Positions 1 through 18,828 of a stretch of 29,084 nt of DNA are shown here, in pieces. Where the stretch lies: positions 1 to 29,084 of the IMG/VR virus record IMGVR_UViG_3300044679_000082; one strand, given 5' to 3'. The notes beneath the pieces were generated by a model, which was given only the letters and a program-made list of their open reading frames with translations, ran no database searches and was not told the DNA's origin. This DNA is from a virus. The stretch's first letter is position 1. Each line of letters starts with the position of its first letter. The position numbers were made by a program, and so were the translations under genes.

Positions 1-243
1 AGATCTAATCATCCAGCAACAGATACTAGCGCCAAAGTTCAACGGACAACCACAAGTAGTAATGGTGCAACTAAAACTACAAGTGGGACTAATTTTAAAT
101 TAAATCGTCATCAAGAAGAGGCGTTAATAAAGATGGGCGTATTGTCTGAGACTGATAGAAGAGTTTTAGATAGCGAACGTTTAAAATATTATACAAAAGC
201 TTGGTCAGATACGAAGAAGAAATATGAGGGAGAGAGAGCATAA
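1..243 (+). CDS. Unidentified protein, C-terminal 80 residues only
   Basis: The first frame is open from the left edge to a TAA at 241-243, so only the carboxy end is present. The fragment begins Ser/Thr/Asn-rich and low in complexity, then becomes a charged helical stretch (rich in Glu, Lys, Arg; includes HQEEALIKMGV) that ends in KYEGERA. Its stop overlaps the next start (TAATG), which indicates translational coupling. By position, upstream of the capsid genes, it could be the end of a portal, scaffold or other head-assembly protein, but no diagnostic motif is visible and I do not assign a function. Confidence 0.75.
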   Translation, partial: RSNHPATDTSAKVQRTTTSSNGATKTTSGTNFKLNRHQEEALIKMGVLSETDRRVLDSERLKYYTKAWSDTKKKYEGERA

Positions 244-953
244 TGGGTGCATCAATAGATAGTTTAGTAAAAGAAGAATTAAGTCGATCAGTCAAAAAAG
301 GTGCTGGTCTAGAAGATATTCCATCAGTTAAAATGGATGAACAAAAATCAGAAGAAGATACGAGATTAACTAAGGCATTAGATGCTAGTCGTACTTCTCG
401 GATTAAGAGCAAGGTTGAAACGGCTACGTTAGGCAAGCCGCGGTTAACCAAAGAGGCGTTACGTGCGTCTCAAACAAATTATTTGCCTACACCAAAGAAA
501 AAAGATCCTAACTATAAATATACTTGGTTGAGCACTGATCATAATGCAAAACCTCATTTTTGGGATGCGCAAGAGAATTTGGGTTTTTTCCCATGTTCTG
601 TTAACGATTATCCAGATATGATTCCACATGTCTATCAGACTAAGGTAGATTTGAATATATCATCAGATAAAGTAGTTTACAAAGAAATGATTCTATGTAA
701 GTTACATGTTGATGACTGGCAATTATTGATGACCGAATATCATCATGATCGCCCAGCTGAAGCAGCTCGAGATATTTATAGGAACCATACCAATAGGTTA
801 AAAGCTTTTGGTGGTAGTGTAAGGGATGTATCGAGGCAGTTACTGGAACAAGAAACTTACGAACCAGATTCCGGTACTGCAGGGGTGACTTTAAATAGTC
901 AAGGTCGCTTTGTACAAACAAGAGCGCCTAAATTTAATCTATCGAAGGAATAA
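243..953 (+). CDS. Pre-capsid conserved phage protein, function unknown
   Basis: 236 residues. The ATG overlaps the upstream stop (TAATG) and follows a purine-rich GAGGGAGAGAG ribosome site. The first 85 or so residues are highly charged and probably disordered (many K, E, R, S). The rest has aromatic-rich beta-like segments such as YKYTWLSTDHNA and ENLGFFPC, followed by a helical end. A protein with this order, charged amino end then a compact W/Y-rich part, commonly sits just before the capsid genes of podovirus-like phages. That placement suggests head assembly (scaffold or head accessory protein). This is inference from position; no catalytic motif is seen. Confidence 0.8.
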   Translation: MGASIDSLVKEELSRSVKKGAGLEDIPSVKMDEQKSEEDTRLTKALDASRTSRIKSKVETATLGKPRLTKEALRASQTNYLPTPKKKDPNYKYTWLSTDHNAKPHFWDAQENLGFFPCSVNDYPDMIPHVYQTKVDLNISSDKVVYKEMILCKLHVDDWQLLMTEYHHDRPAEAARDIYRNHTNRLKAFGGSVRDVSRQLLEQETYEPDSGTAGVTLNSQGRFVQTRAPKFNLSKE

Positions 954-957
954 TAAA

Positions 958-1560
958 ATGGCTTCAGTATTTCAGCCAAATGGATTTCGTCCGGCGTTTC
1001 ATACGTCTGGTACAGCTAATCCTCGGCAACAATTCGGTTCATTGCAAAGCAATGCAACTAATGCGATTTATTCATGGCAGCCTTGTAAACTTGTAAGCGG
1101 TTATATTCAAGCAGCAACTGCTGCAGATGATACCCTAGCAGGGATTTTCGCAGGTGCACAATGGATGGATTCAGTTTCAGGTTTCGTAAAAGAGTACCCA
1201 TGGGTACCAGCTAATACAACTTTCTGGCCATCTGCCAATGAAGGTGATCCGTATTCTACTACTAATGCGCCATATGTATATCAAGATACCGCAATGGAAT
1301 TTGTGGTTCAAGCAAATGGTCCTTTAGCTATTACAGCTTTGGGTCAAACATTTAATTTGGATCTAGCTACAATTGGTAATGGTTCTGCAGCGGGTTATTC
1401 TGAAGCAGCCTTGGATGCAGTAAGTGGCCCGGTGTCTGGTGGTCAATTCATCGTTACAGAATTATATAAAGCTCCCCCTACAACTGATACAAATCAGTGG
1501 GGTGATGCATATACAATTGTAATGGTTAAACTTAACCCACTAACTTCGAATTTTAGTTAA
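958..1560 (+). CDS. Capsid decoration-like structural protein
   Basis: 200 residues. The ATG at 958 has AAGGAA about 8 bases upstream; a longer reading from 910 would overlap the previous gene and is less likely. The protein has the layout of a small head protein family found directly before the major capsid gene of many podoviruses: an FxPNGFRPAFH opening, a central GIFAGAQWMDS segment, a WP..T.FWPS stretch, and YVYQDTAMEFVVQANG, matching the family pattern of 'GFRPVRH ... GVF.G..Y.D ... F.VQA'. It is Ala/Thr/Gly-rich and predicted all-beta, with no signal peptide. It probably decorates or stabilises the capsid. The family match is from memory of the pattern. Confidence 0.7.
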   Translation: MASVFQPNGFRPAFHTSGTANPRQQFGSLQSNATNAIYSWQPCKLVSGYIQAATAADDTLAGIFAGAQWMDSVSGFVKEYPWVPANTTFWPSANEGDPYSTTNAPYVYQDTAMEFVVQANGPLAITALGQTFNLDLATIGNGSAAGYSEAALDAVSGPVSGGQFIVTELYKAPPTTDTNQWGDAYTIVMVKLNPLTSNFS

Positions 1561-1570
1561 GGAATAAATC

Positions 1571-2509
1571 ATGTCAGCACCAATTACTTTAGTCTCCCTA
1601 CGAGAAGTCGTAGAGCCGATTGTAAATGAGAATTTCGACGGCGTGTATGCACAGCGTAGAAATGAATGGAAATCAATCTATGTTCAACGTCCTGGATTGA
1701 AACGTTCATCTCACGTAGAAACTGTGTTGTTCGGTATGGGTAATGCACCGATTGTGGGTGACGGCGAGCCGATCCCTTATGATCAAGGTGGTACATTATG
1801 GTCTATTAATTTCCCTTATTATGTAACAGCTCTTGGATTTGCTATCACTCGGATGGCAATTGAGGATTCTGAATACATTGATTTGGCAGCAACATTTGGT
1901 CGCCACCTAGCTCAGTCGCTTTATGAAACGGAAGAGGTTCTGGCAGCTAATGTTATTAATAATGGTTTTAATAGTAATTACACCCAATTAGGGGGTGATT
2001 CTCAACCATTGTTTAGTGCAAGTCATGGTCTTTATGATGGAACCTATTCTAATATTCTAACTGGTAATCCTGCATTGTCTCAAACCTCTGCAGAACAAAT
2101 GATTATCCAATTAAGTCAATTAGTAGATTCTCGTGGTAAAAAGATCAACGTAGCTCCTCATCAGTTTGTAGTGCCTCCTCAATTAATTTTCCAAGCGGAA
2201 ATTATTTTGAAGTCATTACTACGTCCTGATACAGCTAATAATGCAATCAACCCGATTCAAAGTTTAGGTTTGTTAGAAGGCGGGATGCAAAAAGTAACGC
2301 GTTTAACTAGCCCATATGCTTGGGGTATGACAACTGACTTGAATGCTAAAGGTGACATGGGTTTAGTTAGATTTAACCGTAGAGAATTAACTCGGAAATC
2401 TCAACCAGACTTTTTGACTGATAGTTTACAATTCATTATGAGTATGCGTTATATCTTCGGTTGGGTAGATCCACGTGGAATTATCTTCTCGTCAGGAATT
2501 GGAGGCTAA
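1571..2509 (+). CDS. Major capsid protein
   Basis: 312 residues with a start at 1571 preceded by AAGGAA. The order of elements fits an HK97-fold major capsid protein of the Mu gpT/podovirus type: a helical amino end (LREVVEPIVNENFDGVY), a positively charged segment, a beta-rich E-loop-like part (GDGEPIPYDQGG), a long spine-like helix (IDLAATFGRHLAQSLYETEEVLAANVINNGF), then NVAPHQFVVPPQLIFQAEIILKS and a carboxy beta part ending in MRYIFGWVDPRGIIF. The helix followed by 'PLFSASHGL' and 'LVVPP.L' is characteristic of this group. Neighbours on both sides are head proteins. It should be the most abundant virion protein. No protease or fused scaffold is apparent. Confidence 0.85.
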   Translation: MSAPITLVSLREVVEPIVNENFDGVYAQRRNEWKSIYVQRPGLKRSSHVETVLFGMGNAPIVGDGEPIPYDQGGTLWSINFPYYVTALGFAITRMAIEDSEYIDLAATFGRHLAQSLYETEEVLAANVINNGFNSNYTQLGGDSQPLFSASHGLYDGTYSNILTGNPALSQTSAEQMIIQLSQLVDSRGKKINVAPHQFVVPPQLIFQAEIILKSLLRPDTANNAINPIQSLGLLEGGMQKVTRLTSPYAWGMTTDLNAKGDMGLVRFNRRELTRKSQPDFLTDSLQFIMSMRYIFGWVDPRGIIFSSGIGG

Positions 2510-2510
2510 T

Positions 2511-3020
2511 ATGAGTTTTGTTGGAATTAGTAATTCAAATACAAGTCCTACTAAATTCGTTGGAGTCGTTGGCACTTCTGATCCTACTCAAGATGGTCAA
2601 ATAACTGTAAATAGTTTTGGACAAACTTCTAGTAGTTATGGAGTTGCTCAAATACTTCAGCCAGTGTATTTAACTGCGCGCAATGGGGGTACATTTTCAG
2701 GCACTGCGAATATCCCTACTGGAGCGCTTATTACTGGAATTAAAGTTTACAATACAGGTGCATCAGCAGTTCCGGGTAGTACGACAGTAAATATTGGTTT
2801 GAGTGCTTCTGGTACTCAAATTATGAATACTACGTTGACCTTGGCTGCTTATGCGTATTTAGACTTATTTGCAGATTTTGCAACAGGTTATGGTGAATAT
2901 TTACCGGTAACTTATGGCAATAATCTTTACTATGTAACTGCTTCAAGCCAATTAACTTCGGCTGTAGCTGCTACATTGACAGTAGTTTTTAGTTATATGC
3001 AATCTCCAACGCAGTCTTAA
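2511..3020 (+). CDS. Small beta-rich virion protein
   Basis: 169 residues. ATG at 2511 follows GGAGG one base after the capsid stop; an upstream GTG reading (2475) would lie inside the capsid gene and lacks a ribosome site. The protein is Thr/Ser/Gly/Ala-rich with alternating hydrophobic residues, a composition typical of beta-sandwich decoration or head-fibre proteins, and includes a repeated glycine turn pattern (GGTFSGTANIPTGALITGIK). It lacks cysteines, a signal peptide and membrane segments. Being the last gene before a strong terminator and tightly coupled to the capsid gene, it is probably a capsid accessory protein made in high amount. I do not recognise a named family. Confidence 0.75.
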   Translation: MSFVGISNSNTSPTKFVGVVGTSDPTQDGQITVNSFGQTSSSYGVAQILQPVYLTARNGGTFSGTANIPTGALITGIKVYNTGASAVPGSTTVNIGLSASGTQIMNTTLTLAAYAYLDLFADFATGYGEYLPVTYGNNLYYVTASSQLTSAVAATLTVVFSYMQSPTQS

Positions 3021-3028
3021 TCTGCATC

Positions 3029-3057
3029 CCAACTGTTCGGGAAATCCGAACAGTTGG
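3029..3057 (+). ncRNA. Perfect 12-bp RNA hairpin after the capsid operon
   Basis: CCAACTGTTCGG at 3029-3040 is the exact reverse complement of CCGAACAGTTGG at 3046-3057, with a five-base loop GAAAT. No T-run follows, so it is not itself a classical intrinsic terminator; it precedes the T-run terminator at 3067-3132. It may stabilise the 3' end of the capsid message or be part of a structured RNA. Confidence 0.75.
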
Positions 3058-3066
3058 TGGTAAATG

Positions 3067-3132
3067 CCCAGTAAGGCCTCTATTGCGGAACTCGTAAGAT
3101 CTCTCAAATATGCGCACCACTGGGTTTTTTTT
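3067..3132 (+). terminator. Intrinsic terminator with a long structured loop, capsid operon
   Basis: CCCAGT (3067-3072) pairs with ACTGGG (3119-3124), immediately followed by eight T (3125-3132). The 46-base loop is unusually large. It sits between the capsid genes and a new promoter (3138-3146), as expected for an operon end. A competing pairing (GTGGT 3057-3061 with ACCAC 3116-3120) would disrupt the terminator stem. Confidence 0.6.
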
Positions 3133-3137
3133 ATATA

Positions 3138-3146
3138 TGCTATAAT
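3138..3146 (+). promoter_or_regulatory. Extended -10 promoter TGC-TATAAT
   Basis: A consensus -10 TATAAT at 3141-3146 preceded by TGC, located 34 bases before the start of the small-gene run and directly after a terminator. No convincing -35 hexamer is visible, which is tolerated when the TGn extension is present. Confidence 0.6.
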
Positions 3147-3179
3147 AAGCAATTGTGTTTTGAGGCTGAGACATTCGAT

Positions 3180-3332
3180 ATGGGAAAGCTAGCATTAAGA
3201 GCGCGTCATAAAGTTTCGGGCTATATGGATAATAGATTTATGTGGTTAATTAGTTCAATTGGAACAGGTATAGGGATGGCTATATTATTTATAGATATCT
3301 TTAGAATGGGTCGTATTTTAATGAATAGTTAG
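3180..3332 (+). CDS. Small single-pass membrane peptide
   Basis: 50 residues, ATG at 3180 and TAG at 3330-3332. It has a basic amino end (MGKLALRARHK), then a hydrophobic segment of about 20 residues (about 21-41: MWLISSIGTGIGMAILFIDI, glycine-rich in the middle) and a short basic tail. It is first in a tightly spaced run of five very small genes behind its own promoter. The ribosome site is modest (GAGGCTGAG). Such peptides in phages include pinholins, superinfection-exclusion and host-takeover proteins, but nothing identifies this one. The consistent hydrophobic core and the compact spacing to the next gene support it as real. Confidence 0.55.
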   Translation: MGKLALRARHKVSGYMDNRFMWLISSIGTGIGMAILFIDIFRMGRILMNS

Positions 3333-3340
3333 GAGACAAA

Positions 3341-3499
3341 ATGAGCAAGAAACATCCAGGATTTGCAGCAGTAGAGAAAAAAATCGAAAAAGAAGGTTAT
3401 TCTAAAAAATCAGCAGGAGCTATTTTGGCGAATACGACAAGGAATGCTAGTAAATCGGCTAAAAAGAAAAATCCTGCTTTGAAAAAGGTCAAAATGTAA
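3341..3499 (+). CDS. Small basic phage protein (HPGF type)
   Basis: 52 residues, ATG at 3341 with AGGAG at 3331-3335. Sequence opens MSKKHPGFAAVEKKI and continues EGYSKKSAGAILANTTRNAS, ending in a lysine-rich tail. The pattern 'HPGF..V...I....G.S...AGAILA...R.AS..AKK.NP.L..V' is a widespread small phage protein that usually lies near head or tail genes; its role is not known to me. The strong positive charge would suit DNA or RNA binding or packing with DNA in the head. Its stop overlaps the next start (TAATG). Confidence 0.75.
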   Translation: MSKKHPGFAAVEKKIEKEGYSKKSAGAILANTTRNASKSAKKKNPALKKVKM

Positions 3500-3669
3500 T
3501 GCCAGTTCCACAGTTGAAGAAATTAGCAAAGAAAACGAAGACGAATTTAAAGACCGTTGAAAAAGATTGGTCAAAGGCTAAAGAAGAATATCCCGGCAAT
3601 TGGAAAGCCATTGCAGGTACTACAAAGAAAATTGAAGAAAATCGTATGAAGGCGAGAAAGAAAAAATGA
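3499..3669 (+). CDS. Lysine-rich small protein
   Basis: 56 residues starting at the ATG that overlaps the previous stop (TAATG at 3497-3501) and ending in TGA at 3667-3669. About a third of the residues are lysine or arginine; the middle reads EYPGNWKAIAGTTKK and the ends are basic helices. No signal peptide or membrane segment. The start is set by the overlap, since no independent ribosome site is seen, so it is expected to be translated by coupling. Function unknown; nucleic-acid binding is plausible from charge alone. Confidence 0.65.
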   Translation: MPVPQLKKLAKKTKTNLKTVEKDWSKAKEEYPGNWKAIAGTTKKIEENRMKARKKK

Positions 3670-3791
3670 AAAAACCTATGAAAAAGATGCTTGAGCATGA
3701 AAAGAAAGAAATCAAGGAATCTAAAAAAGGCATTAAGGCGGATATGAAAGAGATGAAAGTAATTAAGTCTCTGAGTAAGAAGAAAAAGTAA
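3666..3791 (+). CDS. Lysine-rich micropeptide
   Basis: 41 residues, start overlapping the previous stop (ATGA at 3666-3669) and stop overlapping the next start (TAATG at 3789-3793). The peptide is a nearly continuous charged helix of lysine, glutamate and methionine (for example MKKPMKKMLEHEKKEIKESK). It is the shortest of the coupled set and could be dismissed as chance, but exact overlaps on both sides and uninterrupted direction argue that it is translated. Function unknown. Confidence 0.55.
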   Translation: MKKPMKKMLEHEKKEIKESKKGIKADMKEMKVIKSLSKKKK

Positions 3792-3997
3792 TGAGCAAGA
3801 AAAATCTTTATACTTGGTTTAATCCCACTTTAGAAATTGTTGCTGAGAAATTATATGATAAAAGGGATTATATAAAAGAGACGATTGTTACTTCGGAATA
3901 TTCTGAAAAAGAGTTTAATTATTTAAAGGGTTGTCTTGCCAATTTAGATGATGTATTGGAATTATTGGAAAAAGTAGATCAAGATAAAAACGGGTAA
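3791..3997 (+). CDS. Small acidic helical protein
   Basis: 68 residues. ATG at 3791 overlaps the preceding stop (TAATG). In contrast to its basic neighbours the carboxy half is acidic and helical (CLANLDDVLELLEKVDQDK), while the amino end carries YTWFNPTLEIVAEKLYDKRD. It closes the small-gene operon; a hairpin terminator follows six bases after the stop. A negatively charged partner encoded next to basic peptides could neutralise them, but that is conjecture. Confidence 0.65.
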   Translation: MSKKNLYTWFNPTLEIVAEKLYDKRDYIKETIVTSEYSEKEFNYLKGCLANLDDVLELLEKVDQDKNG

Positions 3998-4002
3998 TAA
4001 AA

Positions 4003-4028
4003 AAGCTAACCAATTTCTTAGTTAGCTT
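4003..4028. terminator. Bidirectional hairpin terminator between convergent genes
   Basis: AAGCTAAC (4003-4010) pairs with GTTAGCTT (4021-4028) across a 10-base loop. On the minus strand the hairpin is followed by six U (from A at 3999-4004), a good intrinsic terminator for the 5644-to-4081 genes. On the plus strand it is followed by the weaker CTTCTTC. It lies between the convergent stops at 3997 and 4081. Confidence 0.7.
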
Positions 4029-4080
4029 CTTCACTCATGATTGTAGCATTACTTTTCTAAATATGCAAGTTTTCTAATGT

Positions 4081-4536
4081 TTATCCATTATTTCTTGAAC
4101 TTGGAGGAATATAATCTTCTCCATTCCCATCATCATATGGATTCCCAAACTCTTGTGCAGTATTAAACGGATTAGGAGTTACCGGTTGAGTCTCTATCCC
4201 TGGTGTTCCGATAACGAGTCCCTGAATAACTCCGTTGTACTGTGTGGTGACTACTGGTACTCCGCCTTGGGCATTAGGGATACCTAAAATCGGAGGTCGA
4301 ACTACATTGTATTGGTTTGGAACAATGCTTTGTAATGGTCGAGGGTATTGAAGTGCAAATGCATCGGGCTGTAAAGGAGGTAATCTATATGGGTCTCTCA
4401 TATCCCAACATTCTTGGCAGACTCTTAAGCCAGGAGAATTTCCGTCTTTCATTAGGTTTAAATATGGCATAGGTATTTTACATCTATCACAACATCCGAG
4501 CGCATTTACCCCGGAAGAAATCTTAGAGTTAGCCAC
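4081..4536 (-). CDS. Zinc-ribbon virion-associated phage protein
   Basis: 151 residues, with a GTG start at 4536 behind AGGGAA. Two CxxC pairs are visible near the amino end, C16-x2-C19 and C40-x2-C43 (CDRC and CQEC), separated by a hydrophobic stretch, followed by WDMRDPYRLPP. This 'CxxC ... GLRVC..C.D...P...PP' pattern is a common small phage protein found next to head-tail connector genes. The remaining hundred residues are Pro/Gln/Asn/Gly-rich and probably unstructured. It is read from the minus strand after the adaptor-like gene, with a 40-base gap holding a possible -10 (TATAAT at 4563-4568). Likely a structural or assembly protein; the exact role is unknown. Confidence 0.7.
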   Translation of the reverse strand: MANSKISSGVNALGCCDRCKIPMPYLNLMKDGNSPGLRVCQECWDMRDPYRLPPLQPDAFALQYPRPLQSIVPNQYNVVRPPILGIPNAQGGVPVVTTQYNGVIQGLVIGTPGIETQPVTPNPFNTAQEFGNPYDDGNGEDYIPPSSRNNG

Positions 4537-4576
4537 GCTTTTCTTCCCTAGTCCTAAGCTTCATTATATACTATCC

Positions 4577-5644
4577 TCAATTTTGATAAGGCACTAAAAC
4601 GGCGCCAAGCAGATTGATGTTTGAATCATCGGAGTTATTGAACTCGGCTATATTAACTAAACGATCGGCTTGAGCTGCTATACCGTTTCTGAGTTCTGGG
4701 TCAACCCCTGGCAATTCCCAGGACATCTTGGTTGCGAGTGTGAATTTAATGCAGTCTATAAACCAGACGGGTACTTTTATAGCGTTAGGCATTGAGACAA
4801 ATTGATCAATGGTATCATAGGTATAATAATGAATACTCCAGTTGAAAACTTGTGCGCTATTTGGACTTTGCCAGAACCATATTTCGGGAGGTACTGTTTT
4901 TTTGAAATAATAGTTGATAGGCGTTCCTTGTATCCCTTTTGATGGGTAGGCAAAAAAATCATCTCTATTCATTTTTGCAATGGGGATTTCGCGTCCTAAT
5001 CCGGTATATCCTGTATAGAATCCGCGGGAGGAAAGGGTTTCTCCGGGTGCTACAGAGACTTTAAGATAGCTACCTTGGAAAGGTGTCATAAAGTCATACC
5101 AAATGCTAAATCCATCGGTATAAGTTGTTGTAGGATATGTAGTTATGGGTACATAATTGATTCCATCAGTACTTGCTGAAAACGTAAGTGTAACGGTTTG
5201 TTCGCCGTAAAAAAATAAGCCAAAATAATCGTATATTTCGACTGTGTTTCCTGTTAAGAGGAAGTAATCAGAAGTAGTAGCATATGAGAACCATTCATAA
5301 TCAGTAAGGTATTGAGTATCTACAGCAGTCGGTCCGCCACTCGGACTAACAATAGCATGATTCATTGTGCGCCAGTTAAGGTCGAAGATATCAATTACGT
5401 CAGGTGGTAAAAAGTATTTCCATTTCAGTGGTTCAAATCCGAGGACTCTATCTTCGAGTGCCCAAATTGGGATTCCTCGATTGTTTAATTCCATAAGTGA
5501 AAGTAAGAGGTTCTCTTTTGAAAATCGAATCATTTCTGGAGTTAATTCAGAAGTTGATTTCCCGCAGATACGAATAGCATGGTCGAGGAGTTGTGCAACC
5601 GTAATATTTATGTTACTTGCCGGTGGATAATTAACCACAATCAT
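4577..5644 (-). CDS. Head-tail adaptor / tail-stub structural protein (P22 gp4-like)
   Basis: 355 residues. The amino part (TVAQLLDHAIRICGKSTSELT, then LSLMELNNRGIPIWALEDRV) and the carboxy part (YYFKKTVPPEIWFWQSPN, then VPVWFIDCIKFTLATKMSWELPG) fit the podovirus connector or DNA-stabilisation pattern in which a helical adaptor is followed by 'Y...R..P.i..wP.P' and a helix of 'P..w...l...LA..LA'. Between them, about residues 120-215, is an extra Thr/Tyr-rich beta region. The ATG at 5644 directly abuts AGGAG with no spacing; a GTG two codons later (5638) is six bases from it and may be the true start. It is transcribed away from the fibre genes from a divergent promoter region. Confidence 0.6.
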   Translation of the reverse strand: MIVVNYPPASNINITVAQLLDHAIRICGKSTSELTPEMIRFSKENLLLSLMELNNRGIPIWALEDRVLGFEPLKWKYFLPPDVIDIFDLNWRTMNHAIVSPSGGPTAVDTQYLTDYEWFSYATTSDYFLLTGNTVEIYDYFGLFFYGEQTVTLTFSASTDGINYVPITTYPTTTYTDGFSIWYDFMTPFQGSYLKVSVAPGETLSSRGFYTGYTGLGREIPIAKMNRDDFFAYPSKGIQGTPINYYFKKTVPPEIWFWQSPNSAQVFNWSIHYYTYDTIDQFVSMPNAIKVPVWFIDCIKFTLATKMSWELPGVDPELRNGIAAQADRLVNIAEFNNSDDSNINLLGAVLVPYQN

Positions 5645-5665
5645 CTCCTAATATTTATTGGAGAA

Positions 5666-5674
5666 ATTATAACA
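5666..5674 (-). promoter_or_regulatory. Extended -10 promoter TGT-TATAAT, minus strand
   Basis: On the minus strand TATAAT (5671 down to 5666) is preceded by TGT, about 22 bases before the start of the adaptor-like gene. It pairs back-to-back with the plus-strand promoter at 5690-5698. Confidence 0.55.
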
Positions 5675-5689
5675 CAGATAGAGGGGGTA

Positions 5690-5698
5690 TGCTACAAT
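5690..5698 (+). promoter_or_regulatory. Extended -10 promoter TGC-TACAAT
   Basis: TACAAT at 5693-5698 preceded by TGC, 30 bases before the ATG at 5729, in the short divergent region. No clear -35. Confidence 0.5.
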
Positions 5699-5728
5699 TC
5701 TCTAATCAACTTTTAGTAGGATAATAGT

Positions 5729-5935
5729 ATGCCACAAGTAGTATTTTCAAAGAATTCACCTGAGGGGATGAACTTTAATTTACCTTTTGTTCTTGAAGTC
5801 AATAATACTATAACTATTCCTCAATTACCGCCTGCTAGTACATTAACTGGAACAGAGCAATTGATGATTCAACAGGGAACGACGACATGTTTTATAACAC
5901 TAAATCAGTTGGCTACTTTTATTCTGAACACATAA
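5729..5935 (+). CDS. Stand-alone virion-anchor module protein
   Basis: 68 residues, ATG at 5729 with TAGGA upstream. The carboxy half (QLPPASTLTGTEQLMIQQG, then FITLNQLATFI) is the short anchor motif that opens many phage tail-fibre proteins: 'I..LP.a..l.gtE.l.i.q.g.t....l..l'. The same motif opens the next two fibre genes, but here nothing follows it. It could be a minimal structural adaptor, a remnant of a fibre that lost its receptor-binding part, or the donor of a modular anchor. It is followed by a new promoter, so it is a single-gene unit. Confidence 0.65.
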   Translation: MPQVVFSKNSPEGMNFNLPFVLEVNNTITIPQLPPASTLTGTEQLMIQQGTTTCFITLNQLATFILNT

Positions 5936-5948
5936 GTCTTAGAAAACC

Positions 5949-5976
5949 TTGCAGATATTTATAGCTGTGGTAAAAT
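5949..5976 (+). promoter_or_regulatory. Sigma-70-like promoter TTGCAG-16-TGG-TAAAAT
   Basis: TTGCAG at 5949-5954, a 16-base spacer, and TAAAAT at 5971-5976 with a TGG extension. It is the best-formed -35/-10 pair in the window and lies 61 bases before the exported-protein gene at 6038. Confidence 0.65.
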
Positions 5977-6037
5977 ATTGCTAAGGCTGGATAAGTCAAT
6001 TAAATGGCAATCTCTCTAATCTTTAAAGGAATTTATC

Positions 6038-6316
6038 ATGAAAAAGTTATTATATGTTCTTTCGTGTCTTGGATCAATCAATTTAGCTTCCGCAGTATCA
6101 CCAGCACCCTCCTATGGTCAAATGGCCTACTATGGTCAATGGGAAAGCACGTTAAGATACCCTTACCATGCTAATCATGCAATGACAACTACTCCAGTAG
6201 TACTTTTTGAAAGTGCTGCTTATGAAAGTGGTGCAGTTGTACAATATGTAGCAACCGGAGTTCCAACTGTAGGTAAATATCCTAATTCTGATACAGCGTG
6301 GGTTGCGCAACAATAG
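6038..6316 (+). CDS. Small exported protein with Sec signal peptide
   Basis: 92 residues, ATG at 6038 behind AAAGGA. The amino end MKKLLYVLSCLGSINLASA has the charged start, hydrophobic core and A-x-A cleavage site of a Sec signal peptide, cut probably after residue 19 before VSPAPSYG. The mature part is about 73 residues, rich in Tyr, Ala, Thr and His, with no cysteine. C10 sits too early in the hydrophobic core for a convincing lipobox. It has its own promoter and lies between fibre genes, an arrangement typical of a moron-like gene. Periplasmic or surface action (for example receptor masking or exclusion of other phages) is possible but not shown by the sequence. Confidence 0.7.
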   Translation: MKKLLYVLSCLGSINLASAVSPAPSYGQMAYYGQWESTLRYPYHANHAMTTTPVVLFESAAYESGAVVQYVATGVPTVGKYPNSDTAWVAQQ

Positions 6317-6333
6317 TTTTATAGGGTTATGAT

Positions 6334-7005
6334 ATGTCAACACCTTTAATTCCATTGGACGAGCTCCCTGCGGGGGGTGCCGTTCTAGATACGGATTTAT
6401 TGCTAATTGAGCGGGATACGGGGATTAATTATACTATTTTGGGAAGCACTATTACGAGTGCTACTACAAATGTGATGACTACCCTAGGTGATTTAATTAT
6501 TGGGAATACCGCAGGAGCGCCATTAAGATTGGCAGGGAATATTACAACTACTCCTAAGTATTTGAAATCACTCGGTACAGGGAGTGTTGCGAATCTTGAG
6601 ACGTGGGCTCAAGTAGCATATTCTGATGTGAATGGGGCGCCTAGTTTCAGTGGTGGTACTTGGACGCCGACGGATGCGAGTGGAGGTAGTCTCACATTTA
6701 CTGTAACTTATGCTACTTATCGGGAAAGTAATAAGATATGCGTATTGCAATTGCAATTAGCATTTCCTGCGACTTCCGATAGTAATGACATATTAATTGG
6801 GGGTCTCCCGAAGACTGTTTCGGCGACAGCCGTTTCCTCGGTGGGTTCTATAGTGGTTAATGCAACTATGTTAACTTCTACCCTCATTCCACAACTAAGT
6901 TCTACGGGAATATTTATTTATGATAATACAAACGGCGCCCGTCTGACAAATGTGGGGTTGAGTGGACTTACTATATATCTAACAATTACATATCAAACTA
7001 CTTAA
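6334..7005 (+). CDS. Tail fibre protein with virion anchor and C-terminal receptor-type domain
   Basis: 223 residues. Three parts are visible: an anchor motif at residues 8-40 (DELPAGGAVLDTDLLLIER), a connector of the kind widely shared by phage fibres at about 49-92 (TTLGDLIIGNTAGAPLRLAG followed by TTTPKYLKSLGTGS), and a beta-rich end starting at GGTWTPTDASGG that carries the 'GLP' turn (ILIGGLPKTV) of small receptor-binding or collagen-tip-like domains. ATG at 6334 has only a weak AGGG ribosome site. It is followed by a paralogous-anchor fibre gene 13 bases on. It probably attaches to the virion through its amino end and contacts the cell through its carboxy end. Confidence 0.75.
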   Translation: MSTPLIPLDELPAGGAVLDTDLLLIERDTGINYTILGSTITSATTNVMTTLGDLIIGNTAGAPLRLAGNITTTPKYLKSLGTGSVANLETWAQVAYSDVNGAPSFSGGTWTPTDASGGSLTFTVTYATYRESNKICVLQLQLAFPATSDSNDILIGGLPKTVSATAVSSVGSIVVNATMLTSTLIPQLSSTGIFIYDNTNGARLTNVGLSGLTIYLTITYQTT

Positions 7006-7018
7006 TAAAGGATAGTCA

Positions 7019-8767
7019 ATGACTACTCAAAAAAAAATAGATCAATTACCTTCAGGAGGTGCTGTTCAGGCATCTGATTTGTTCTTAATTGAGCGAACGG
7101 ACGGGGATAGTTATAAAGTTTTGGGTAGTGCATTGGGAGGGCTCACCACTAACACAACAGCCTATGATGGGAATGATCTTACTACTACGGTAAATAGCGT
7201 TTCCTCAACTCCTTTAGAGATAGATGGCGGAACAATTTTAGTAACTGACCCCACGGGAGGTAGTCCGAATAGTGTTGTATTAGATACCGCATTAGCAAAT
7301 GCATATTTGCCTCAAACAACAACTGCATTAACGATAACTGCCCATAATCTAACGACATATGGAGGCACGCCAGCTTATACAGGTACAGATACTAAGACTG
7401 GCATAGTGCATAATGTAAATATTCAATTAACGCAGACCGAGGGATTTACTGCTACTGCACAGCTAGGTGCTACTACATATCCTGCACCAGTCTATCCCCT
7501 AGATAGTTATCTTACTGGATTAGCTGTTAATCCAGCGCAGGATACGGTCTCTAATATAGTAATTCAACAACCTGTATTAACGCAACCTCCCACATATGCA
7601 AATTTATTTTCTACTTTGGGTGATGCGTATTGTACATTTATTACGGATAATAGCGGAATAACTTATTATTTAATTGCCGGCGGTGCGTCCAACACCCTCT
7701 TTACTTATTATTTTAATGGTACGCAATGGGTCTCTAGAGGAAGTTTTAATTATGGCTCTGGACCTGTGGGTGGAATATTCGCATTTATGGATGCATCTAA
7801 TGTTATGTATGCTGCGATAACAAGAAGTAATGCTAGTTATGCTTACATTTGTTATGCAACTGGTAGTGGTGGGACACTTGTATGGCATAATACAACTCAA
7901 GGAACTATATCTGTAGGTGATAATGCAACAGGTATAACTGGATTTACTGATACGTTTGGAGTTCGCTATCTTGTAGTCTCAGCCACTGGAGATACTGACA
8001 TGTATGCATTTTATTTGTCAGCTGGTAGTGGATTATCTGCAGTATTCACCGGAACGGCTCAAGGTGAAATAATTATCCCTTACACGCCGCCTCTCCCGGT
8101 AGCTGCCTTTGTAGATTCATCCACCCAATATGTGATAGTTGGCTATCAAGATAGTGGTGTGGGTTCAGGAGGATATAATTTATATTATATATCAGGTACA
8201 GGTGTATTAATGACGCTTAACCTTACAGATCAAGGTGAAGTTTTTCTATATGGGCTAACAGAAGTAGATATGATTAGTACATTTATGAATAATGGGACAA
8301 CATATATCACATCTTTAGATGGTCAAGTTTATAACGGCTTTGATACAGCTTCATTGTCAGGAGTGGGTGCAAGTGCGGTTTTGACCGAAATAGGTGTTAT
8401 TTATTATGGTGGAACTAATTCTTATAGTTTAACTACTATTAATGTAATGGATAATTCATTATTATATTTACCTGTTTATAATGACGGATTTGCTAATACA
8501 ATAAATGCATATGTATTTAATAGTGGGACTGCCTCATGGGTGCCATATACTACGTATGCAATCGGCTCTAATCCGTGGGGTATAGCTTCTGGTTTTGCTG
8601 GTTCAACTCCAATGGTAGGAGTAACAGCTCAGGCCGGCGCTTTGTATAAGATTGAAACACAAGGAGTCGATGGAGGTAATCAAATAGTAGATACTTCTGG
8701 AAATATATATCTTCCTCCTTGGACAGCGGCTTTTAATACTGCAATTACATTTGATTATACGGAGTAG
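7019..8767 (+). CDS. Large tail fibre / receptor-binding protein with propeller-like body
   Basis: 582 residues, ATG at 7019 behind AAAGGA. It opens with the anchor motif (IDQLPSGGAVQASDLFLIER), closely matching the previous gene, then a Thr-rich linker. From about residue 175 onward it is built of recurring beta units spaced roughly 50 residues apart, each with a hydrophobic strand and an aromatic 'Y.YY..G.G' strand (TYYLIAGGASNTLFTYYFNG, YAYICYATGSGG, MYAFYLSAGSG, YNLYYISGTG), suggesting a beta-propeller. No enzymatic motif is apparent, so binding rather than depolymerase activity is the simpler reading. The repeat spacing is judged by eye. Confidence 0.7.
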   Translation: MTTQKKIDQLPSGGAVQASDLFLIERTDGDSYKVLGSALGGLTTNTTAYDGNDLTTTVNSVSSTPLEIDGGTILVTDPTGGSPNSVVLDTALANAYLPQTTTALTITAHNLTTYGGTPAYTGTDTKTGIVHNVNIQLTQTEGFTATAQLGATTYPAPVYPLDSYLTGLAVNPAQDTVSNIVIQQPVLTQPPTYANLFSTLGDAYCTFITDNSGITYYLIAGGASNTLFTYYFNGTQWVSRGSFNYGSGPVGGIFAFMDASNVMYAAITRSNASYAYICYATGSGGTLVWHNTTQGTISVGDNATGITGFTDTFGVRYLVVSATGDTDMYAFYLSAGSGLSAVFTGTAQGEIIIPYTPPLPVAAFVDSSTQYVIVGYQDSGVGSGGYNLYYISGTGVLMTLNLTDQGEVFLYGLTEVDMISTFMNNGTTYITSLDGQVYNGFDTASLSGVGASAVLTEIGVIYYGGTNSYSLTTINVMDNSLLYLPVYNDGFANTINAYVFNSGTASWVPYTTYAIGSNPWGIASGFAGSTPMVGVTAQAGALYKIETQGVDGGNQIVDTSGNIYLPPWTAAFNTAITFDYTE

Positions 8768-8771
8768 AGAT

Positions 8772-9029
8772 ATGAGTTTACGAATTAATTATGCGAATTT
8801 ACCAAATTTATCTAGGGAAATAACAGTAAACGAACCCGTTGTTGTAGGCGATTCGATGACAGCAACTTTAAATATCAATGTTAATACTGGGGTACGTGTG
8901 ATTCCGCTTGAGCGAACGCGAACAATCCCCTATAATTCTACAAGTGAATTATCGCCTAAGGCTCAGTTTTATGCATATTTGTTGACTTTAAAACCATTTC
9001 AAAATGCGGTTGAGATTCCTGATAATTGA
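8772..9029 (+). CDS. Small beta-type protein of unknown function
   Basis: 85 residues. ATG at 8772 follows GGAG four bases after the fibre stop; the longer reading from 8751 overlaps that gene and lacks a ribosome site. The protein includes ITVNEPVVVGDSMTATLNIN and ends in a helical AQFYAYLLTLKPFQNAVEIP. No cysteine, signal peptide or membrane segment. It lies between the fibre and lysis genes and could be a minor virion or chaperone protein. I do not recognise it. Confidence 0.7.
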   Translation: MSLRINYANLPNLSREITVNEPVVVGDSMTATLNINVNTGVRVIPLERTRTIPYNSTSELSPKAQFYAYLLTLKPFQNAVEIPDN

Positions 9030-9040
9030 TTGGGGAGAGA

Positions 9041-9337
9041 ATGACTGAAGCCATTTTATTAAAGTCCATAGACGAGTTAAGTAGGAAAGTAGATAAATTA
9101 GAAGAGACTTTGGAAAAATTCCAAGAGAAAGTTGGGACTAATTTTGAACAACTTGACGAAAAAGTAGAAGGTCATGGACGTATTATTGCTACGGGTACAG
9201 GAGCTTTAAAAACAGTTCTTTGGGTCTCTACTACTGCAGTTACTCTCTGGAGTATTTATTCAGGGATGGTTTCAAAGTCTGAGGCAATAAGACATTCATT
9301 TGAACCACCGGCAGCGATCTATAATAAAGGAAATTAA
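9041..9337 (+). CDS. Coiled-coil plus membrane-anchor protein (XhlA-like layout)
   Basis: 98 residues, ATG at 9041 behind GGGGAGAG. Residues 5-45 form a charged heptad-like coiled coil (LLKSIDELSRKVDKLEETLE), followed by a hydrophobic segment at about 55-73 (ALKTVLWVSTTAVTLWSIY) and a short tail. This coiled coil then single membrane segment matches the layout of the XhlA haemolysin/lysis-associated family, which acts with holin and endolysin in some phages. The next gene is the holin candidate two bases away, which supports a lysis role. Assignment rests on layout and context, not on a signature motif. Confidence 0.6.
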   Translation: MTEAILLKSIDELSRKVDKLEETLEKFQEKVGTNFEQLDEKVEGHGRIIATGTGALKTVLWVSTTAVTLWSIYSGMVSKSEAIRHSFEPPAAIYNKGN

Positions 9338-9338
9338 A

Positions 9339-9644
9339 ATGTTCTTTATTCATATATTAAAAGATGGAACCTTTAAAGTAAAGTTAACATTCTATATAAA
9401 TGTAATAAAAGAATATTTACAAATGCCATCAACTTGGGAGGCTATTATTGGTCTTATTAGTATTGTTGCATCATTGTTAAAGCCAGTTGATAAAGATTTA
9501 ATCCTTTACTCTGGCGCATCTATATGGGCATTTTTAAGGTTAATTACTAGGGATACAACTAGTGTCTTTGGTCGAATAATAAAAGCAGCTGTTACAGCTC
9601 ATGATGAGTTGCAAACTAATATTCCACCTAATGATGCAGCTTAG
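9339..9644 (+). CDS. Putative holin, two membrane segments
   Basis: 101 residues, ATG at 9339 behind AAAGGAAA; a longer reading from 9300 overlaps the previous gene and has no ribosome site. Two hydrophobic segments are seen, about 33-47 (WEAIIGLISIVASLL) and 53-69 (DLILYSGASIWAFLRLI), joined by a short KPVDK loop, with a soluble tail of about 30 residues. Size, two-segment topology and position directly before spanin and endolysin fit a holin that permeabilises the inner membrane to release the lysozyme. No family signature is recognised. The stop overlaps the spanin start region. Confidence 0.55.
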   Translation: MFFIHILKDGTFKVKLTFYINVIKEYLQMPSTWEAIIGLISIVASLLKPVDKDLILYSGASIWAFLRLITRDTTSVFGRIIKAAVTAHDELQTNIPPNDAA

Positions 9645-10170
9645 AATAATTCTCTACATTTGCTCATATATGGCAATTTTTTTTATAGGATGGCATGAGC
9701 GAGCTATTAGGGATAACAGTAAGTCGATGGGTCAGACAATCGATTTGCAGGCTAAACAAATTGTACAACAAAATCAAATCATCGCTAGTCTCCAACAACA
9801 AAATCAGATAAGTAATGGGGCCGCTAAACAATATGAATCAGAAGCAGAAGCATTAAGAGTTTCTACGGCAAATTTGAGTAGGGAGTTAACAGATGTTAGT
9901 ACTCAGAATCGGATTAATCTTGATAATAAGCTTAGTAATGAGTTCTTGTGGTATGTTCAACAGTCCGAGCAATCAAGACCACGCGTGCCCTCCTTATCCA
10001 TCTCCCCCGGCGGATTTAATGCAGAAAGCGCAACCTCTGTCAGTCCCAGTGCAGAATTAATTAATATTACGGGTAACTTTGCTCAATGTAATTTGTATAT
10101 TGAGCAATTGAATAGTTTAATTGGATGGATAGAAAGTCAACAAAGTGGTAATATCACGAGCAGGAATTGA
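9631..10170 (+). CDS. Inner-membrane spanin (Rz-like)
   Basis: 179 residues from the chosen ATG at 9631 (others at 9601 and 9634; none has a clear ribosome site). I prefer 9631 because the hydrophobic anchor (RIILYICSYMAIFFIGW) then begins within a few residues of the start, as in Rz proteins. After the anchor comes a long Gln-rich coiled coil (AKQIVQQNQIIASLQQQNQI) and a carboxy segment with CNLYIEQLNSLIGWIES. The periplasmic coiled coil should meet the outer-membrane partner. It overlaps the holin stop, wholly contains the Rz1-type gene in another frame (9893-10060), and overlaps the endolysin start. Rz-type function is a confident inference from layout and the nested gene. Confidence 0.75.
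   Translation: MMQLRIILYICSYMAIFFIGWHERAIRDNSKSMGQTIDLQAKQIVQQNQIIASLQQQNQISNGAAKQYESEAEALRVSTANLSRELTDVSTQNRINLDNKLSNEFLWYVQQSEQSRPRVPSLSISPGGFNAESATSVSPSAELINITGNFAQCNLYIEQLNSLIGWIESQQSGNITSRN
9893..10060 (+). CDS. Outer-membrane lipoprotein spanin (Rz1-like), nested in Rz
   Basis: 55 residues, read in the +1 frame entirely within the Rz-like gene. ATG at 9893 is preceded by AGGGAG (9880-9885) with a seven-base spacer, an excellent ribosome site inside a coding gene. The product starts MLVLRIGLILIISLVMSSC, a lipoprotein signal with the modified cysteine at residue 19 (SSC), leaving a mature peptide of about 37 residues that is rich in proline (CPPYPSPPADLM). Proline-rich short lipoproteins nested in Rz are the hallmark of Rz1 of lambda. 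With the Rz-like protein it should bridge the periplasm and fuse the membranes at the last step of lysis. Residue -3 is Met rather than Leu, slightly off consensus. Confidence 0.85.
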   Translation: MLVLRIGLILIISLVMSSCGMFNSPSNQDHACPPYPSPPADLMQKAQPLSVPVQN

Positions 10171-10603
10171 GTTAATAGAAAGTTTTGAGGACTATAGAGC
10201 GGGTCCTTATTTAGATGCGGCAGGTGATCCTACAATTGGTTATGGCACAAGGACGTATCCTAATAATGTTGCTGTTACTATGGAAGATGCTCCAATTAGC
10301 AAATTAGAAGCTGCTATTTATTTACAATCAAGTTTGAATAAAATTTGTTTATGGATTAATCAAAATATTACTTGCACTCTTAATCAGAATCAATTTGATG
10401 CACTGTGCTCTTTTTTTTATAATGTCGGGTGGAGAGGTTTTATAAATAGTAATCCTAATACGTGGCATGTTCTTTCTTCATGTAATTTAAGTCAGTTTGC
10501 CCAGGACATGTTAAAGTTTTGTCATGTAAATGGAGAGGTATGTCCGGGGCTTGTTTCTCGTAGAGAGAAAGAGCAAGCATTGTTTTTGACGCCTATGATA
10601 TAA
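10145..10603 (+). CDS. Endolysin, T4-type lysozyme (GH24 muramidase)
   Basis: 152 residues. The start is GTG at 10145, inside the end of the spanin gene; it places ISRAGIELIESFE at the amino end exactly as in T4/P22-type lysozymes. The catalytic triad E-8x-D-5x-T is present as E15, D24 and T30 in ESFEDYRAGPYLDAAGDPTI, followed by GYGT. The mid-part NQNQFDALCSFFYNVG and the end GLVSRREKEQALF are family hallmarks. It cleaves the MurNAc-GlcNAc bond of peptidoglycan. There is no signal peptide or signal-anchor, so release should depend on the holin. It is slightly shorter than T4 lysozyme (164 residues), usual for the group. Confidence 0.95.
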   Translation: MVISRAGIELIESFEDYRAGPYLDAAGDPTIGYGTRTYPNNVAVTMEDAPISKLEAAIYLQSSLNKICLWINQNITCTLNQNQFDALCSFFYNVGWRGFINSNPNTWHVLSSCNLSQFAQDMLKFCHVNGEVCPGLVSRREKEQALFLTPMI

Positions 10604-10604
10604 T
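10596..10604 (+). promoter_or_regulatory. Extended -10 promoter TGA-TATAAT overlapping the endolysin stop
   Basis: TATAAT at 10599-10604 preceded by TGA; it includes the endolysin TAA stop. It lies 27 bases before the ATG of the adaptor-like gene at 10632. No clear -35 is present. Confidence 0.45.
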
Positions 10605-10631
10605 CACTAATCATTGTTTCATGGGGGTACT

Positions 10632-11453
10632 ATGTCGGACGTATTTACTACACAGTCACTACAGACATTAGATCCCGATATTACATGGACATATACATCT
10701 TTATGTAATTATTTACAAAAGTTCTTAGATCGTACTGATTCATCGACAGTTAATAATATTCCCCGATTTATTAGTTTAGCTGAATCAAGATTGGCATCTG
10801 ATCTTAAGGTTTTATCTCAAGTAAATACAGTTCAATTTACATTACCTCAAACGGTAAAAGCTTCAGGTTATTTAGCTGGAGGGAGTTCTAATCCTCAGGG
10901 GCCATTTATAATCGAGGGATTTAATGGTCAAATGAATTACGGGATTGAAATTCAGTACCCGCCTCAATCTTTGCCTTATAGTGTAACTATATCTAAACCG
11001 CAAGGCTATCGGATGACAAAGAGTTTGGCGGTGGTTACTCCTCAGGGACGTAATTATATGTACAACCGTTCTTATGAATATGTGCAGGAATATTTACAGG
11101 ATTTTAGTACATTAAATTTAGCGGATCAATCTAATTATACTGGTTGGATATATTATTCAGATATAGATATTAGTAATATTATAATTGGGCCATTAGTAGA
11201 AGATATGGCTTATACTTTTGAATGGCAATATTATGCTGAAGTTCAACCATTAAGTTCAGCAGTTCAACAGAATTATTTTACTATTTATTACCCACTTGCG
11301 CTTATATATGCAGCTCTTATTTGGGCATCCGAATATTTGCGTAGTGATAATAGATCTATGCAATGGGAACAGACCTATCAGTCCATTATAGGTGGTCTCA
11401 ATAAAGAAAATAGTGAGAGACAAATGGATAATTCAAATTTACGTTTAAATTAG
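10632..11453 (+). CDS. Phage adaptor / head-tail connector protein
   Basis: 273 residues, ATG at 10632 with GGGGGT upstream; the reading from 10614 adds residues before the ribosome site and is rejected. Amino end WTYTSLCNYLQKFLDR, then VNNIPRFISLAESRLASDLK, follows the widespread connector pattern 'sL...i..wl.R.d....iP.fI.lAE.ri..dl'. The middle is a beta domain and the end (YYPLALIYAALIWASEYLRS, then WEQTYQSIIGGL) matches the family's carboxy helices. Such proteins sit under the portal and link head to tail. It opens the operon with the large fibre and hub genes. It is a second adaptor-like protein in this window besides the minus-strand one. Confidence 0.75.
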   Translation: MSDVFTTQSLQTLDPDITWTYTSLCNYLQKFLDRTDSSTVNNIPRFISLAESRLASDLKVLSQVNTVQFTLPQTVKASGYLAGGSSNPQGPFIIEGFNGQMNYGIEIQYPPQSLPYSVTISKPQGYRMTKSLAVVTPQGRNYMYNRSYEYVQEYLQDFSTLNLADQSNYTGWIYYSDIDISNIIIGPLVEDMAYTFEWQYYAEVQPLSSAVQQNYFTIYYPLALIYAALIWASEYLRSDNRSMQWEQTYQSIIGGLNKENSERQMDNSNLRLN

Positions 11454-11462
11454 GGAATCGAT

Positions 11463-14400
11463 ATGCCACCATTAACAGTTAACTTTACTAACCCTTTAGG
11501 CGAACAAATCAACCCGACGAATACTACTTATCAATCATATAGTATTCCGACAACAGCGTATTTCTTTTGGCCAACGCAGGTCATAACTGATACCACAACT
11601 CAATTCTATGTGGCTGGTACAACTGTGTTGACTTCTAGCGCAGCAGCAACTGTTCTGTTACCGCCTGTAGAATTAGTGAGCGCAGGATCAGCATTCATAT
11701 TAGCTAATGTGGGGACATATACGCTTGCAATTCAGGGGAGTGATACTTCAAGTATTATTAACATTACTAGTGGTCAACGGGTATTATTTAATACTACAAC
11801 AAATGTAGTAACGAGTGTTGAGTCAGCCTGTTGGGCAACTACTGTATTGGGAGCAACGACTAATACGAACACTTTAAGTCAAAATTTAGGTAATAGTTTA
11901 CGATTTATTACTACGACTAATGAAGTACAAGTAGCTCAAACAGTGACGTCTATTCAGGCAGCTTTACCTGGGAGTGCTAATGTATATACATTAGGGATTC
12001 CTCAAGCAATAACCTATTGCGCTACAACATTAATTAACCCTCCTGGAATTAATACTCAAGTCAATGTCCAATTGGGGATTAGTGCCCAATTATATGGAGC
12101 TTGTGGTTTTACATGTACTTTTGTAAATGAAGGTAATCAGCCAGTAGTTATTCAAACTCAAAACAACGATACGATTAATGGGTTACCTATTCAATCTAGT
12201 AATGATTCAGCTAGTTTTGTTCTAATTCCGAGTTCGTCATGTAATTTAACTTCGACTACTAATGGCGATTGGTTAATTACTGCTCAAAGTTCTCCTTATC
12301 AACAGATTTTTAGAACAGCAAGTATTAATCTAGCGACAGCTAACTATGTTGGGTTGAGTAATCAATCAAGTCAGACAGTAGGGATTGATAATGTAACTAT
12401 ATTACCTAATCCATTGGATGGTGCATCAATTGCGATTGATATGTCTACTAATTTAGATTTGATCTATTCCCCGCTTTGGATTATTACAGGAAGTCCTCCA
12501 ACAGCTATTCAGGAGTATTATGCAAGTATAGGTCAATCTTCTTTTTGGATTTTACTACCGAATAATTTTACATCTATTTATTTTGTATTAGCCCAATCAA
12601 CTACGAGTGCATTTAAATTTGGCTTGGGTGCAGAATATGTAACGGGTCCAACTACATATGTAGTAATTCCTCCTTTAAACGATTCATATGAAACGAATGG
12701 GAATACCACGTGGCCAATTCAATATTCAGCTGCTATTACTAATAGTCCCCTAACTCAATTCACGTCTAGTCTGTTATTTACAGGTGGTGGAGGTAGCGGA
12801 ACTCTTTATCCAGATATTACAGATATTGATGGGACAGTGTATATAACAGGTCCAGGCGGTTTAATTGTAGAGAATGGACCATTAGAATTAAGTGGCTCTT
12901 TTAGAGGTACTATTGGGGGCAATGAAATTGCAGTTGTAATTCCTGAGCCTTACGTATTAAATGATTTAGTTGTAGTAGGTACCGGAGGTAATACAGCGGA
13001 TAGCGGTATTGCAGTGAGTACTAATCAATCATTGTTGCCCGGAACTAATTATTATGTACCGACTCAAGAGGCGGTTCTCCAATATATTAGTACAGTAATA
13101 ACAAGTCCTTTAACATTTTTAGGTACTTGGAATGCAACTACAAATACACCTCATTTAGTAGCTGGTACTGGCGTAGTAGGTGATACTTATATTACAGCTG
13201 TAGCGGGTACCCAAACGGCGCCTAGTGGCACTTCTACGTCTTATAATGTGGGTGATTTTCTTGTTTATAATCAAAATGCAATTTGGTTAAAAATCCCTAT
13301 GACTTCTTTTGTGATAAGTGTCAACGGGTTAACTGGGGTTGTAGTTCTTAATTTAGAAGACTTGAATGATGTTGTAATCACATCTCCTGGCGATGGTGAT
13401 GTGCTAGTTTATGATAGTGGATCGAGCGAATGGGTTAACGCGCCTTATCCTCCTAATATGACTTTAGAAGATTTAGTTGATGTCAATGTTATATCTCCTC
13501 TAAATGGGCAGGTCTTAACGTACAACAGTAGTGTTTCTGAGTGGGAGAACATGACTATTCCTACTGGAATATATTCTGACTTTAATAGAGTATCTGAAGT
13601 TGCTACCCCTTACACTATTCTCGTTTCAGATAGTTTTAATTTACTTTATATGACAGGTTCAGGCACCTATAATATCCCTAGTCCTTCTGGATTTGCTATT
13701 GGGTTTACCGTATGTATAAGTAATAGTGAACTGACTTCCGGCAATGGGCACATGAGTATTAGTGGTCCGGATGGAGTTGTTGCAATTACTCAAACTAATA
13801 CAGGCATCCCTGCATATTATAAATTTGAGGTAGCGTATTCATCAACTTTAACTTCAAATATCTGGGTAGTTAATAACATTGAGTATAACGAATACTCCGA
13901 ATTAGTGACTGAAGCAAGCCTAGATGGAGGCACCTTACCAGCAAGTTTTACTACACTTGATACAAGCGGAGTCGCAACCCTTAATAGTTTGGTAGTGGAT
14001 AATGCAGCAACATTTTTAAATACCGCGGGTGGTGCTAAAATTCTTATGATAAATGATGCTAATACCCAGCCTGCTGCTCAATTTTATATTGAAGGTGAAA
14101 ATACTCCTTATAGTGGTCTCGGTGGGGCGGGCAATCCTGCAGTATTAAAAGCATATGGTGGAGCTGGCCAGAGTTCGATGTCTTTTTCTTATAATAGTAC
14201 AGATGGTCGCCCTTATTTGCCTGAAGCTACTGTAGGTACTGCAGGTGGCCCTTTGGCGGTAGCATGTTGGGGTGATTTAAAATTTAATACTCTACTTACA
14301 GGTCCAACTTATGTAATATATCCTAGTGGCGCATGTGATATTTGGGGAGTAGCTTTGATTAGTAATCCGAGTACTTCCACAACGGTTACTTTACCGTTCG

Positions 14401-18669: not shown

Positions 18670-18828
18670 CTAGGCCCATTCCCAGTGATAGCCTCCTGCG
18701 GTGATGTGATGCGTCCTTTTATGGGCAACCCCGGCGATATTGCTTCTATTAATTCCTGTAGCTTTAGCTGCTTCAGTACATGAGTTATAAATAAGATTAG
18801 TTTCAACACATTTTACTTTTTTCCTCAT
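18670..18828 (-). pseudogene. NUMOD-type DNA-binding tail of the HNH endonuclease, out of frame
   Basis: 52 codons on the minus strand from an ATG at 18828 to TAG at 18670-18672. The peptide reads VKCVETNLIYNSCTEAAKAT, then INRSNIAGVAHKR and ends in AGGYHWEWA, the pattern of a nuclease-associated modular DNA-binding (NUMOD1-like) helix-turn-helix: 'V.c.eT...y.S..eAak..gi....I...c......aGGyhW'. It begins at an ATGA overlap with the stop of the upstream HNH gene and is one base out of frame with it. Either a single A was lost in the AAAA run near 18828, splitting one endonuclease gene, or the two parts are made separately by restart at the overlap. Confidence 0.7.

Follow-up and report, generated by a model that had tools for sequence, protein, structure and literature searches.

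A predicted exported accessory protein encoded in the fibre-gene cluster of an uncultivated phage lineage

Whether a second phage can enter is decided by small proteins that the resident phage directs to the host envelope; the well-understood published cases found here come from coliphages. One account (PMC7677548) describes the T4 early gene product Spackle (gp61.3), a 97-aa precursor that yields a soluble, disulfide-containing periplasmic protein of 75 aa and inhibits gp5, the tail lysozyme of the superinfecting phage. Another (PMC9586334) describes T5 Llp, a small lipoprotein that binds the receptor from the periplasm, and whose gene lies adjacent to and downstream of the receptor-binding gene pb5. 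This list would grow by an unrelated example from a fibre cluster in a lineage known only without cultivation.

The window analysed here is an entire virus record of 29,084 bases, though this contig probably represents part of a longer genome. Its gene 6038-6316 encodes a 92-aa protein (Table 1) that shares features with both coliphage systems. Like Spackle, it combines a signal peptide with a soluble mature part of similar length (75 versus 73 aa); like Llp, it is small, predicted to be exported, and encoded beside receptor-binding tail genes. Unlike Spackle, it lacks a cysteine pair, and its gene lies in a late fibre cluster. Unlike the exclusion lipoproteins Llp and Cor, it carries no lipobox (motif [LVI][ASTVI][GAS]C; PMC11893012) and has a predicted SPase I cleavage site: its sole cysteine, residue 10, follows V-L-S within the h-region, and the mature part contains none. 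No match to Spackle was found in Pfam or PDB sequences, and none to Llp or Cor in the PDB search (E limit 10). Judged by its sequence, the protein belongs to neither the Spackle nor the Llp family. Interference with superinfection is therefore proposed by analogy, since there is no sequence match, no lipobox, and no cysteine in the mature part. Other small exported phage proteins with genes close to those for receptor binding have been described, and this protein would be a new and unrelated example if export holds.

Table 1. Positions of the features discussed and the evidence for each; the last row refers to a related locus, all others to the window
Feature	Position	Strand	Evidence or remark
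Tail-adaptor homologue	4577-5644	-	Homologues in 92 loci
68-aa ORF, virion-anchor motif only, no distal fibre part	5729-5935	+	Anchor HMM E 4e-11 after iteration; HMM seed
Promoter-like site TTGCAG-16-TAAAAT, extended -10 TGn	5949-5976	+	Weighted score, rank 18 in window
Ribosome-binding site AAAGGA	6025-6030	+	Sequence reading; 7 nt 5' of the ATG of 6038-6316
Orphan gene for predicted exported protein	6038-6316	+	92 aa, ATG start; coding score; no convincing homologue
Predicted Sec signal-peptide codons	6038-6094	+	19 aa, predicted cleavage between ASA and V; rule-based score 31.1
Predicted mature part	6095-6313	+	73 aa, 8.0 kDa, pI 5.4, acidic, without cysteine
Anchor-bearing fibre-type protein, 223 aa	6334-7005	+	Anchor HMM E 1e-9, seed; homologues in 2 loci
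Anchor-bearing fibre-type protein, 582 aa	7019-8767	+	Anchor HMM E 1e-10, seed
Separate lysis cassette: Rz, nested Rz1 (9893-10060), phage lysozyme	9601-10603	+	PHROGs and Pfam matches
Signal-peptide ORFs of locus L049	6214-7326; 11535-13964; 14336-15207		Structural region

ORF 6038-6316 is a real coding gene. Its codon-usage score of 0.293 is gene-like on a yardstick of 13 reference genes (0.105 to 0.477) and 11 spurious ORFs (at most 0.176). The coding signal sits in the mature part, with a score of 0.369, against 0.0 for the codons of the signal peptide and -0.141 for the in-frame gap upstream. The RNA-family search returned no match, and the leader folds no better than shuffled sequences (z 0.53). 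Structure prediction from the single sequence gave an uninformative model (pLDDT 45.7). A likeness to chitin-binding modules, suspected by eye, received no support from Pfam.

The N-terminus, MKKLLYVLSCLGSINLASA followed by V, fits export by Sec and cleavage by SPase I: an n-region beginning MKK, the h-region LLYVLSCLGSINL, and the site ASA before V. This agrees with the preliminary description, which had reported a Sec signal peptide with an A-x-A site and a mature part of about 73 residues, and had proposed signal-peptide prediction as a check. The score of 31.1, which comes from our own crude rule for n-, h- and c-regions and not from SignalP, was reached by 26 of 20,000 whole-protein shuffles and by 33 of 20,000 shuffles of the first 40 residues. 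Among the 384 start codons of window ORFs of at least 60 aa, this gene alone attains it. Actual export and cleavage of the protein are predicted.

The genes around it are of a different kind. An N-terminal motif, ITxLPxAxxLTGxE, is common to the flanking ORFs that begin at 5729, 6334 and 7019, and is taken to anchor these proteins in the virion; the claim that structural genes stand on both sides is thus upheld. An HMM of 27 columns, iterated from these three seeds, matched 29 segments: 27 forward ORFs (seeds included) and two short reverse-strand segments, which were set aside. None of the 27 forward ORFs has a signal peptide ahead of its anchor motif (0/27), and the HMM did not report the 92-aa protein even at E 100. 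Because 27 anchor proteins lack the signal peptide and the 92-aa protein lacks the anchor, the conclusion that its build is that of an exported protein, unlike an ordinary virion fibre, is well supported.

Transcription from a promoter of its own is plausible. The gap upstream of the gene measures 102 nt, versus 13-17 nt between the next genes, which is compatible with a promoter without proving one. A site with an extended -10 element lies within this gap, and to that extent the proposal of an own promoter stands; the further assertion that this is the best -35/-10 pair in the window does not, since the site ranks 18th and falls under the 9/12 cut. That ranking comes from a weighted scan using our own weights and a bonus for the extended -10, in which 2.2% of 80-nt plus-strand stretches equal the site. 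A consensus scan of positions 1-14000 found no plus-strand site of at least 9/12 within 5936-6037, and its 50 sites are at chance level (52.5 expected, sd 7.0).

Homologues of the 92-aa protein were sought widely. Exact-peptide scans, which detect close relatives only, gave no convincing homologue in viral or genome contigs, nor did tblastn give a convincing match in phages or plasmids; a Hymenobacter plasmid match (E 0.2) was put down to chance from its surroundings. PDB sequences yielded only two flavoprotein chains (E 0.9, at an E limit of 10). No family matched in Pfam, PHROGs, NCBIfam, or PADLOC, whether enzymatic, fibre-domain, or defence. The best other hit had E 0.21 in a set of 10,920 six-frame ORFs from the fetched loci, and E 0.4 in a set of 20,365 drawn from the window plus fetched loci. 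A search of 50 whole records found it in none (0/50), an empty result that, having no positive control, proves nothing. Signal-peptide proteins beyond the adaptor gene were also sought in the 66 relatives whose loci extend 2.5 kb or more past that gene. Four of the 66 were flagged, of which three contribute ORFs of just 43-55 aa; the remaining one, L049, is convincing. With a single convincing case in 66, the feature, as read from these sequences, is not conserved.

Absence of conservation had been named beforehand as evidence against the proposal, and this outcome, zero homologues in all searched collections, does go against it. The missing homologues imply that gene 6038-6316 is lineage-specific, and they weaken the functional claim without killing it. 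The best reading of the sequence is that of a variable, lineage-specific accessory gene whose product is probably targeted to the periplasm.

The lineage itself appears isolated. For the major capsid protein (1571-2509), identity is 45% to the counterparts in Caulobacter phages RW, RLK, KcrB, and GB2A, and mostly 43-48% to those in the nearest uncultivated virus contigs. Annotated relatives carry genes for terminase, portal or head-to-tail connector, GroES-like protein, and adaptor. When viral contigs were scanned for exact peptides of three of its proteins (adaptor, 1,035-aa structural protein, primase), no near relative turned up; nor was one found in genome contigs with the capsid protein. 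Wherever an adaptor homologue occurs in other loci it shares the strand of the capsid gene (92/92), whereas in the window it lies on the minus strand. Segment 4081-5644 is accordingly read, because of these 92 loci, as an inversion in the window's lineage. The minus-strand pair there consists of the adaptor gene and a cysteine-pair gene that looks zinc-ribbon-like by eye.

The host is likely diderm. Rz1 matches phrog_3198 (E 4.1e-6), and a spanin gene of Rz1 type inside Rz points to a host with an outer membrane. The 92-aa protein is itself no such outer-membrane spanin, a lipoprotein encoded within Rz; the phage's Rz1 lies elsewhere, in the lysis cassette. The existence of that separate Rz/Rz1/lysozyme cassette also makes lysis control the weakest of the roles suggested earlier. 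Expression from a prophage, another suggestion, finds no support either: no integrase or repressor matched in the proteins scanned, a subset of the ORFs of a probable fragment.

Together, these features suggest the following model. A lineage-specific accessory gene would have been inserted into the late fibre cluster; its product would be made with a Sec signal peptide and cut after ASA; the soluble 73-residue protein would be freed into the periplasm of a diderm host; and there, at the envelope, its likeliest action would be to interfere with a further infection, through the receptor or through the tail enzyme of the incoming phage. We give this reading, an accessory gene whose exported periplasmic product interferes with superinfection, a probability of about 0.4. 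Its parts differ in standing. Sequence evidence supports coding, signal-peptide architecture, placement, and a likely diderm host, and the neighbouring fibre-type genes were counted in favour of this reading, as was the signal peptide placed ahead of a tail-fibre region in L049. Against it, zero homologues means that there is no functional anchor for the protein; the single convincing case among 66 relatives and the lack of any defence-family match, or of a PDB match better than the flavoprotein at E 0.9, weigh on the same side. Thus the suggested action on the host envelope holds as regards the build for export; the envelope role itself we infer, and an exclusion function would follow by analogy.

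The same export evidence, coding score and signal peptide alike, would serve an exported accessory protein with another envelope role unrelated to superinfection, such as host-surface modification, cell protection, or lysis timing, and nothing links the 92-aa protein to exclusion or defence families. Yet the complete lysis cassette 3 kb away makes a lysis role redundant and no enzymatic family matches, so that this alternative is considered somewhat unlikely. Export might instead serve the virion, if after lysis the protein joined or coated fibres or receptors. Relatives do encode fibre-like proteins that carry signal peptides (L049 6214-7326, 11535-13964, and 14336 onward; L002 4482-5693), but the 92-aa protein has neither the anchor motif nor a fibre-domain match, and the 27 anchor-bearing proteins have no signal peptides; a virion accessory is quite unlikely.

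Two further explanations dispense with export. The N-terminus could be hydrophobic by chance, or could stay uncleaved as a membrane anchor, in a small cytoplasmic or inner-membrane protein, as the zero codon score of its codons and a signal-peptide call below SignalP grade would allow. The rarity of its score among shuffles, its uniqueness among window starts, the classic KK n-region, and the ASA site make this distinctly improbable. Alternatively, the ORF might be a decaying fibre-gene fragment, broken downstream of 5729-5935: that ORF consists of the anchor alone, shares its frame with 6038-6316, and is separated from it by a gap with one further in-frame stop. However, the gap is not gene-like whereas the mature part is, and the ORF opens with a new ribosome-binding site and a signal peptide, which leaves decay very improbable.

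The relatives mentioned above deserve closer description. Our signal-peptide rule picked out 13 ORFs from 2,455 gene-like ones in the window and the fetched loci, a count that leaves out loci L001, L007, and L094-L097. Five of the 13 count as credible and fall within structural regions: three belong to L049, one is L002 4482-5693 (403 aa), and the fifth is the window ORF. The other eight were not counted with these. Two in L070 are an overlapping pair, spanin-like by eye; that in L135 overlaps another ORF and probably has its true start internally; L002 3847 has homologues in other loci without such an N-terminus; those in L009, L062, and L074 stay as candidates; and that in L114 is an in-frame extension of a capsid ORF. 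The L114 ORF (1112-2173) carries a 50-residue Sec-like N-terminal extension in frame with the capsid sequence, possibly an open frame that arose by chance or an artefact of assembly.

A further signal-peptide ORF, L094 7379-7828, lies just downstream on the same contig as L049, so that this single contig has four in its structural region. In L049 6214-7326, a 24-residue signal peptide stands directly ahead of a tail-fibre C-terminal region: residues 34-354 match positions 790-1093 of the 1096 in tail-fibre phrog_4492 (E 1.6e-33). A homologue in Synechococcus phage S-H34, also a tail-fibre protein, starts without a signal peptide. Visual inspection had suggested a virion anchor behind the signal peptide of L049 14336, but the HMM gave it no support.

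Phages L049/L094 and L002 have capsid proteins 45-47% identical to that of the window, and their fibre-type proteins, like the 92-aa protein, bear Sec-type signal peptides in a structural region. Unlike it, they are fibre-like and 290-809 aa long. Convincing similarity to the 92-aa protein was not found among them (best E 0.025 and 0.035 in a four-sequence set); the E 0.035 match, to the L002 protein, falls mostly in the signal peptide and was rejected as homology. Some phages of the group might export stand-alone receptor-binding or fibre-like domains through Sec as decoys or receptor masks, with the 92-aa protein as a minimal member. This broader proposal, which depends mainly on the L049 contig, is improbable. 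Literature screened by title and start of abstract contained no account of signal-peptide fibre decoys, which is weak evidence. The lead from L049 is more novel than the 92-aa gene: its signal peptide joined to a tail-fibre C-terminal region offers the testable idea that exported fibre tips mask receptors.

Two other parts of the window drew attention. The structural protein encoded at 14601-17708 has repeats that by eye resemble Ycf48-type beta-propellers, a weak DUF6242 match, and a resemblance to another phage's gene whose annotation reads photosystem II assembly factor. On the minus strand at 18825-19355 lies an ORF that by eye resembles an HNH homing endonuclease.
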